Source of the DNA: Hellea sp.
Lineage (GTDB): Bacteria; Pseudomonadota; Alphaproteobacteria; Caulobacterales; Maricaulaceae
DNA length: 57,148 nt
Reading direction: 5' to 3'
NCBI GenBank assembly: GCA_013002305.1
Contig: JABDKG010000012.1
Span: forward strand, 1 to 57,148
A program made the translations under genes and the position numbers. This document shows, one piece after another, positions 52,552-54,606 of the stretch. Below the pieces are notes generated by a model. That model saw only the letters and a program-made list of their open reading frames with translations, searched no databases and was not told the origin of the DNA. Numbering within the stretch: the stretch's first letter is position 1; every line of letters starts with the position of its first letter.

Positions 52552-54606
52552 ATGAATAAAATACCCAACCAGGACGCGTTTAAAACGCCCACCGTGACCA
52601 CGGGCCCGTTGCCGGCGTCGACCAAGGAATATACTGCGCCAAAGGCTGCGCCGGACCTTCGTGTGCCTCGGCGGGTGATTGCGCTCCATCCAACGGCGAA
52701 TGAGCCGGATGTTCCTGTCTATGATACGTCCGGGCCTTACTCTGATCCGTCCGTCACGATTGAAGTGGAGAAGGGACTGCCCCGGCCTCGCACCGCTTGG
52801 GTGCTGGAGCGCGGCGGCGTTGAGGCATATGAAGGGCGCGAGGTTAAGCCCGAAGATAATGGCGGGGCCAAGGGCAAACATCTTGCCCGTGAATTTCCTA
52901 TTCGGAACAAGCCTCTCCGGGGGATCACCCCCTCTGCCCCCAAAAATTTGGGGGCATCTCCCCCTCAAGGTGGAGAGGTAAATCCCTCCACCGCCCGGAA
53001 CAAGGTGAAGGCGGGGGAGGTGGCCGGAGCGTCAGCGCAGGTCGGAGGGGGTAGTTTCGTCTCCGCCGAAGATACCCGGGCCGGAGAACGCCTCGGCCTT
53101 GTCACCCAATATGAATTTGCCAAGGCCGGGATCATTACCAAGGAAATGATCTATGTTGCCGAGCGTGAAAATATCGGGCGGCAGGAAATGCTCGAAGGCG
53201 CGCAGGGCCGCGTTGATGCCGGTGAGGGTTTCGGCGCCGAGCTACCCGCTTTCGTGACGCCGGAATTTGTCCGCTCCGAGATTGCCCGCGGCCGCGCCAT
53301 CATCCCGTCCAATATCAACTACGCTGAACTTGAGCCGCAAATCATCGGCCGGAATTTCCTCGTCAAGATCAACGCCAATATCGGAAATTCTGCGGTTACG
53401 TCCGGCGTCGAAGAAGAGGTCGATAAAATGGTCTGGGCGACGCGCTGGGGCGCGGATAATGTCATGGACCTGTCGACGGGCCGCAACATTCACAACACCC
53501 GCGAATGGATCATCCGCAACTCCCCCGTGCCGATTGGCACCGTGCCGATCTATCAGGCGCTCGAGAAAGTGAACGGCGTCGCCGAAGACCTGTCCTGGGA
53601 AGTCTACCGCGACACATTAATCGAGCAGGCCGAACAGGGCGTCGATTATTTCACCATCCACGCCGGCGTGCGCCTGGCCTATATCCACCTGACCGCAGAG
53701 CGGGTCACGGGCATTGTTTCGCGCGGCGGCTCAATCATGGCCAAATGGTGCCTGTCCCACCATAAGGAAAGCTTCCTCTACACCCATTTCGAAGAGATTT
53801 GCGACATCATGCGCACCTATGATGTTTCCTTTAGTCTCGGCGATGGCCTGCGCCCCGGCTCTGTCGCCGACGCCAATGACCGCGCCCAGTTTGCCGAACT
53901 TGAAACCCTCGGCGAGCTGACGCAGATCGCGTGGCACAAAGGCTGTCAGGTCATGATCGAAGGCCCCGGCCATGTGCCCATGCACAAGATCAAAGTGAAT
54001 ATGGAAAAACAGTTGCGCGAATGCGGCGAGGCGCCGTTCTATACGCTCGGCCCCCTGACCACTGATATTGCGCCCGGTTATGACCATATCACCTCGGGCA
54101 TTGGCGCGGCCATGATCGGCTGGTTCGGCACGGCCATGCTGTGCTATGTCACGCCCAAAGAGCATCTGGGACTACCCGACCGCGACGATGTCAAAGTCGG
54201 TGTCATCACCTATAAGCTCGCGGCTCATGCTGCCGACCTGGCCAAAGGCCACCCGGCCGCGCAAGTTAGAGACGATGCGCTCTCGCGCGCCCGGTTTGAG
54301 TTCCGCTGGGAAGATCAGTTCAATCTCTCTTTGGATCCCGAAACCGCCCGCGATTTCCACGACCAGACCCTCCCCAAAGAAGCCCACAAAGTCGCGCATT
54401 TTTGCAGTATGTGCGGCCCGAAATTCTGCAGCATGAAAATCACGCAGGACGTCCGGGATTATGCGGATGGATTGTCGGATAATGAGAAAGCTGCGCTCGG
54501 ATTGGATGCCAAGAAGGGGATGGCGGAGATGAGTGACAAGTTCAAAGAACTTGGCGGCGAGATTTATTTGTCGGAGGATGGGAGTGTCCGGGAGGATATT
54601 GATTAG
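52552..54606 (+). CDS. thiC: phosphomethylpyrimidine synthase with in-frame repeat insertion
   Basis: 684 residues, longer than the usual ~610-640. ThiC is a radical-SAM enzyme that turns aminoimidazole ribotide into hydroxymethylpyrimidine phosphate for thiamin synthesis. Conserved parts are [59 protein letters not shown] and the C-terminal iron-sulfur motif CSMCGPKFC (Cys618, 621, 626). Residues 126-167 (bases 52927-53052) are repeat sequence, low in complexity and foreign to the family, placed just before the conserved [15 protein letters not shown]. The reading frame stays open, so activity is plausible. Controlled by the TPP riboswitch at 52266. Confidence 0.95.
52927..53052. repeat. family C palindromic repeat inside thiC, exactly 42 codons
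   Basis: 126 bp from accccctctg to ggtcggagggggt. The inner part (ccctccaccgcc, then ggcgggggaggtggcc and gagcgtcagcgcaggtcgga) matches the intergenic copy at 43231-43364. The length is a multiple of three, and no stop codon occurs in the thiC frame. Confidence 0.88.

Follow-up and report, generated by a model that had tools for sequence, protein, structure and literature searches.

A REPIN-like palindromic element very probably inserted in frame into the ThiC linker of Hellea sp., with apparent parallel insertions in other genera

The thiC gene of Hellea sp. carries in its coding frame a palindrome that we read, with good confidence, as a REPIN-like and apparently mobile element inserted into the linker of ThiC and kept there as a disordered, harmless loop; palindromes appear to have been fixed independently at this place in five genera. 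The window analyzed here is a stretch of 57,148 nucleotides from this genome (G000; Caulobacterales, Maricaulaceae). Its thiC reading frame encodes 684 amino acids without internal stops, a Pfam search found both ThiC domains in the product, and the CxxCxxxxC motif lies at residue 618 (Table 1). An earlier note on this DNA had described a 126-nt palindrome lying in frame and free of stops in thiC, and this description holds for a gene that is intact and present once. The element is an inverted pair of hairpin units with terminal inverted repeats. Its outer arms, ACCCCCTCTGCCC and GGTCGGAGGGGGT, are 85% complementary, as are its inner arms, GGGCATCTCCCCC and GGGGGAGGTGGCC. The RNA fold of positions 52915–53065 has a z score of −4.3, and none of 200 shuffles was equally stable.

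Table 1. Features of the thiC region and the related intergenic copy (positions in the window)
Feature	Position	Strand	Remark
Intergenic copy, element family as in thiC	43231..43364	+	134 nt
TPP riboswitch (RF00059), upstream of thiC	52263..52366	+	agrees with thiC being regulated
thiC (phosphomethylpyrimidine synthase)	52552..54606	+	684 codons; single copy in genome
In-frame palindromic element, two inverted half-units	52927..53052	+	42 codons, residues 126–167
Left outer arm	52927..52939	+	
Hairpin of left half	52935..52956	+	
Left inner arm	52952..52964	+	
Right inner arm	53013..53025	+	
Right outer arm	53040..53052	+	
Sixteen further linker codons, from palindrome to VTQ	53053..53100	+	no repeat relative among those compared

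Upstream of the gene, the riboswitch is flanked by direct repeats of about 165 nt (52051–52213 and 52339–52507; 97% and 85% identity in two stretches), which contain another palindrome, apart from the thiC element. The second of these repeats starts within the aptamer match and parts the riboswitch from thiC. A MIR1882 match on this other repeat scored 24 bits against a gathering threshold of 107 and was taken as chance.

The insertion lengthens a short linker. The distance from the PLRG to the VTQ motif is 59 residues in the window ThiC versus 5 in congeners (G001, G004, G005, G007, and G009), and also 5 in G035, the nearest insert-free row of the ThiC tree. The net gain is therefore about 54 codons, of which the palindrome provides 42; the remaining 12 or so, nearly all 3′ of the palindrome, are not accounted for by the element. 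This revises two points of the earlier note, which had postulated a precise 42-residue insertion directly before a conserved 10-residue block: the element ends 17 codons before that block. The 16-codon 3′ tail matched nothing above the shuffled level when compared with the window and seven G000 loci. Variation of the native linker may explain the 12 extra codons, and it also prevents single-base placement of the junctions. The insert-free thiC sites are also too diverged for a target-site duplication to be read. The top PDB matches of the window ThiC, by fold as well as by sequence, are to Caulobacter ThiC, where the insert site corresponds to the stretch from residue 124 to residue 132.

Structure prediction is consistent with a flexible loop. 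An AlphaFold model of the window ThiC built with 30 sequences had a mean pLDDT of 64.8 and a pTM of 0.75; residues 132–173 scored below 50 and residues 181–200 above 90. In all, 165 residues fell below 50, some of them in parts of the conserved C-terminal region, so low pLDDT is not peculiar to the insert. The insert is thus predicted to be disordered by a model of middling quality. The earlier suggestion that a mobile palindrome is tolerated in ThiC as a flexible loop, in the manner of the Rickettsia palindromic elements (RPEs), gains support from this prediction, from insert-free relatives, and from in-frame copies elsewhere.

The thiC element belongs to a dispersed family. As had been proposed, it matches the intergenic repeat at 43231–43364, which has the same architecture: BLAST aligned it to the right half of that copy (43289–43363) at 75% identity (E 7e-6) and, weakly and in inverse orientation, to the left half (E 0.6). 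A pattern for the half-element had 14 exact matches in the G000 genome and none when reversed as a control. Most of 13 aligned G000 halves follow a consensus of TCCCTCCACCGC, a short loop, GCGGGGGAGGTGGCC, a variable hairpin, and GGTCGGAGGGGG; the left half of the thiC element is the most diverged among them. A slightly looser pattern was present in 61 of the 99 relatives searched; its control matched once in total. One relative (G092) has 190 half-element matches, far above all others of the 99 genomes, together with five DUF559 matches and no RAYT match.

Palindromes also occupy the same ThiC site in other genera. ThiC matches were found in 108 of 116 genomes of the family and in G039 (109 in all), and the linker was read in 98 of them, including G012, read by eye from the frame; the linkers left out were those of G157, where the pattern failed, and of G026, G036, G058, G099, G114, G132, G149, G154, G161, and G163. 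A palindromic insert was present in five of the 98 (G000, G052, G030, G022, and G016, each of a different genus) and in none of 32 genomes read from four other families of the order. Four of the five genera also have members without an insert, G022 being the sole member of its genus here. The linkers with inserts fold at z scores of −2.9 (G000), −4.3 (G052), −3.9 (G022), −4.1 (G030), and −5.7 (G016). In one further genome (G032), ThiC matched in pieces only, in several frames and at 41–67% identity (L247/L256); this gene is possibly decayed or misassembled.

The distribution could reflect one old insertion that was inherited and lost many times or spread between genera by gene exchange. The G052, G030, and G022 inserts have the same architecture and frame as the window insert, and those of G030 and G022 (G052 less so) are alike at the same place. 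Furthermore, a tree of 41 ThiC cores places the window ThiC outside its own genus, with genus g12 (96/72, not starred), whose members G035 and G020 have short linkers. The same tree nonetheless needs five changes, of which at least four are forced by starred, supported branches, and one change sufficed in 0% of 200 bootstraps; it was built with the linker excluded, with only the C-terminal part for 15 of the 41 rows, and is blind to exchange of the linker alone between genera. G030 pairs with the insert-free G013 (100/99), and the G016 insert is a different palindrome, from another family. A single old insertion or exchange is therefore improbable, and the palindromes in the five genera look like parallel insertions. 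The earlier note had taken the presence of the same loop in ThiC of unrelated genera as a sign against its reading. Inserts do occur at the site in four other genera, but with differing sequences, one of them being another palindrome, and the tree places them as separate gains.

The linker also varies in length in the absence of palindromes, which makes the site permissive. A longer type with an SSPC motif occurs in G027, G075, G117, G130, and G107; it recurs in scattered genera (L033, L038, L411, L416, and L423), and the two examples folded are not palindromic. A second non-palindromic long type, of 26 residues, is found in G095 and G067. These types lend some substance to the idea that the window linker is itself a native, length-variable one that is GC-rich and of low complexity by chance. 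However, the three of the seven that were folded (G027, G075, and G095) gave z scores of 0.1, 1.3, and 0.2, no more stable than shuffles, and the window insert has its arms and half-unit consensus in common with the dispersed copies, which makes this idea very improbable. Equally remote is a repeat wrongly joined into thiC during assembly: the G000 assembly comprises 102 contigs and the contig with thiC holds the repeat at another place too, but the insert is in frame, stop-free, and between ThiC domains, and the same arrangement is found in assemblies of 4 and 7 contigs (G016 and G022).

In-frame copies extend to other proteins. The earlier note had proposed a genome-wide search for further copies inside coding regions. 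In G000 this found thiC alone to be crossed by a long reading frame, among nine of the ten elements (all but the one at the end of contig C83), but four relatives carry related repeats in other housekeeping proteins. Across the five insert-bearing genomes, 65 half-pattern matches were merged by hand into 54 elements, and the 16 long frames over elements, together with the window ThiC, were searched with Pfam. Of the 54 elements, 11 are in frame within genes whose domains flank them on both sides (by homology for ThiC outside the window). They are those of ThiC in G000, G052, G030, and G022, the G016 ThiC insert being outside the 54; GlyS in three genera (G016, G052, and G022), always in the same loop after MGRYY; the linkers of 2-oxoacid dehydrogenase E2 in G052 and G030; and an enzyme with FAD_binding_2 and Succ_DH_flav_C domains and DnaE, both in G052. 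Nine of the 16 long frames were not counted: eight were not backed by domains on both sides (L190, L320, L291, L296, L334, L325, L332, and L328), and in L298 the element precedes the MurB domains. Among the 15 of 30 GlyS loci that were read, the loop has 26 residues in eight and 67–95 residues in seven, with palindromes checked in three of these seven. GlyS has a second variable stretch, at about residues 577–655 of the G052 protein, where both sequence and length differ strongly among the genomes compared (GlyS loci L338–L367).

These observations are consistent with a simple course of events. One copy of a REPIN-like element, made of two hairpin half-units of about 60 nt in inverted orientation, would have entered the native linker that joins the N-terminal ThiC-associated domain to the radical-SAM domain, keeping the reading frame and introducing no stop. 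The resulting loop, transcribed and translated as part of thiC, would be disordered and leave the enzyme core untouched, and selection would therefore have let it stay. That the cell translates this loop, and that it is disordered and does no harm, is our inference. At a linker this permissive, palindromes of at least two kinds have become fixed at one place in five genera, independently according to the tree, and the same is seen in the GlyS loop and the other linkers.

A candidate for what moves the element comes from longer copies that contain a gene. On contig C34 of G000 (9126–9588; L057 1417–1893), a DUF559 gene lies between the two halves of an element of the thiC family. Its ATG stands three bases after the left half, and its reading frame continues through the right half, in the same frame as thiC (PSTA..AGEVA). 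This unit sits between the apparent end of glyQ, judged from the reading frame, and the start of glyS, identified by a match. A second DUF559 gene in the genome (contig C65; L058 1420–1940) has repeats of another palindrome family on both sides. In G030, the repeat flanking a DUF559 gene differs from the thiC repeat of that genome by one base, in the core.

We consider evenly balanced the proposal that the palindromes and DUF559 form a class of mobile elements whose REPIN-like hairpin pairs are moved by a Vsr-like PD-(D/E)XK nuclease instead of a RAYT or IS transposase, and whose gene-free copies repeatedly become in-frame loops of housekeeping proteins, as ready-made linkers (ThiC, GlyS, and E2). 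The nuclease would act on the hairpins to move the elements. Of the 45 best-scoring DUF559 loci, a subset of all matches, 32 reached the cut-off of 28 for inverted flanks; in the controls, it was reached by one of 78 outer flanks and by one of 24 thiC loci. Over 99 genomes, the half-pattern count follows DUF559 (rho 0.59, p 2e-10) but shows no association with RAYT (rho 0.13, p 0.2), kinship being ignored in both; the second result gives no support to RAYT, matched as Y1_Tnp in 22 of the 99 genomes, as the mobilizer.

Units of DUF559 and repeats are also duplicated with sharp ends. In G034, a 672-bp unit of DUF559 and palindromes occurs twice at 98.8% identity (L146 1331–2002 and L368 1311–1982), in unrelated surroundings and with divergence starting at the arms; G018 has two copies of a 556-bp unit of DUF559 and a repeat, at 88%. 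Judged by its sequence, the duplicated DUF559–palindrome unit looks like a mobile unit. No target-site duplication was evident at the printed ends of the two 672-bp copies, where one of 2–3 nt would escape notice. A comparison of 19 genomes of the genus found the left flank of the G034 unit in many and its right flank in G034 alone among the matches listed, with no clean empty site. Two loci from different genera (L376 and L377, in G022 and G057) have DUF559 domains in frames of more than 500 amino acids with alike surroundings; these are perhaps fused or captured copies.

Alternatively, DUF559 could be a passenger, or a Vsr-like repair gene lodged among the repeats, with another enzyme moving the palindromes. 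This explanation falls just short of an even chance. In Caulobacter, the DUF559 protein VsrA is reportedly Vsr-like and the cause of the SOS response that follows loss of a cytosine methylase (PMC12907096). Thirteen of the 45 best-scoring loci remained below 28 in the flank test, and cross-locus flank scores could also be high (first round, 930 pairs: median 21, 95th percentile 47) because the repeats are shared between loci. Four genomes with at least four half-copies have no DUF559 match (G019, G033, G038, and G048), and G000 itself has one weak Y1_Tnp match, of the RAYT family (E 2e-6), at a contig end. Against a passenger stand the excess of inverted flanks over the controls, the copy numbers, and the duplicated units. 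The titles and abstract openings of the papers found to mention DUF559 hold no tie to palindromic repeats, and titles retrieved by pairing DUF559 with palindromic, transposition, repeat, or endonuclease pointed to no such link.

REPINs are dispersed elements made of two inverted hairpin half-units. The thiC family resembles them, and BIMEs, in being a dispersed inverted pair of hairpin half-units, but differs from those that work with RAYT in that its half-copy number is not tied to that gene. It resembles pairs of MITEs and autonomous partners in that short gene-free copies exist beside longer gene-bearing ones with the same ends; unlike in those partners, the gene encodes a DUF559 (Vsr-like) nuclease and not an IS transposase. 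NCBIfam includes models of the RPEs, and the peptide of window positions 52900–53100 matched no NCBIfam family at E 1e-3; the likeness to RPEs drawn here is one of behavior.

In-frame palindromes have their precedent in the RPEs of Rickettsia (PMC2229807; PMC10969869; PMC3733652). They are described as palindromes of about 105–150 nt that lie in frame in housekeeping genes and are tolerated as added peptide (PMC2229807; PMC10969869). Like them, the thiC palindrome is in frame and stop-free in a conserved gene, is missing from close homologues, and leaves the host protein otherwise intact. Unlike them, it belongs to another host order, shares its protein site with palindromes fixed in several other genera, and has long copies that bear a gene. 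The protein-coding palindromic repeats of Wolbachia and intragenic ERIC/RU are likewise small mobile repeats with open frames inside genes (PMC2229807; PMC10969869). They occur in other taxa, and the passages of the source texts that describe them mention no link to DUF559. Caulobacter and its relatives contain CIRs, long inverted repeats of about 110 nt (PMC2229807) that contain GANTC and are reported as strictly intergenic (PMC10969869). Identity of the thiC copy with CIRs was rejected, as it has no GANTC; the motif occurs in two of the ten G000 repeat stretches tested. Literature searches that were not aimed at recurrence by name met no report of palindromic inserts recurring at the same site.

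The thiC case is an event of the Rickettsia-RPE kind outside the order of Rickettsia; its twist is that a DUF559 gene lies between the halves of some copies. Known members of the host order are mostly free-living. In-frame palindromes have been described above all from Rickettsia (PMC2229807; PMC10969869), which are obligate intracellular bacteria. In the present order the process leaves convergence, with different kinds of palindrome fixed at one ThiC linker in several genera, and this convergence makes the question of neutral tolerance versus a useful linker testable in cultured, harmless bacteria. The link to DUF559 points to a concrete candidate for the mobilizing enzyme of such repeats.
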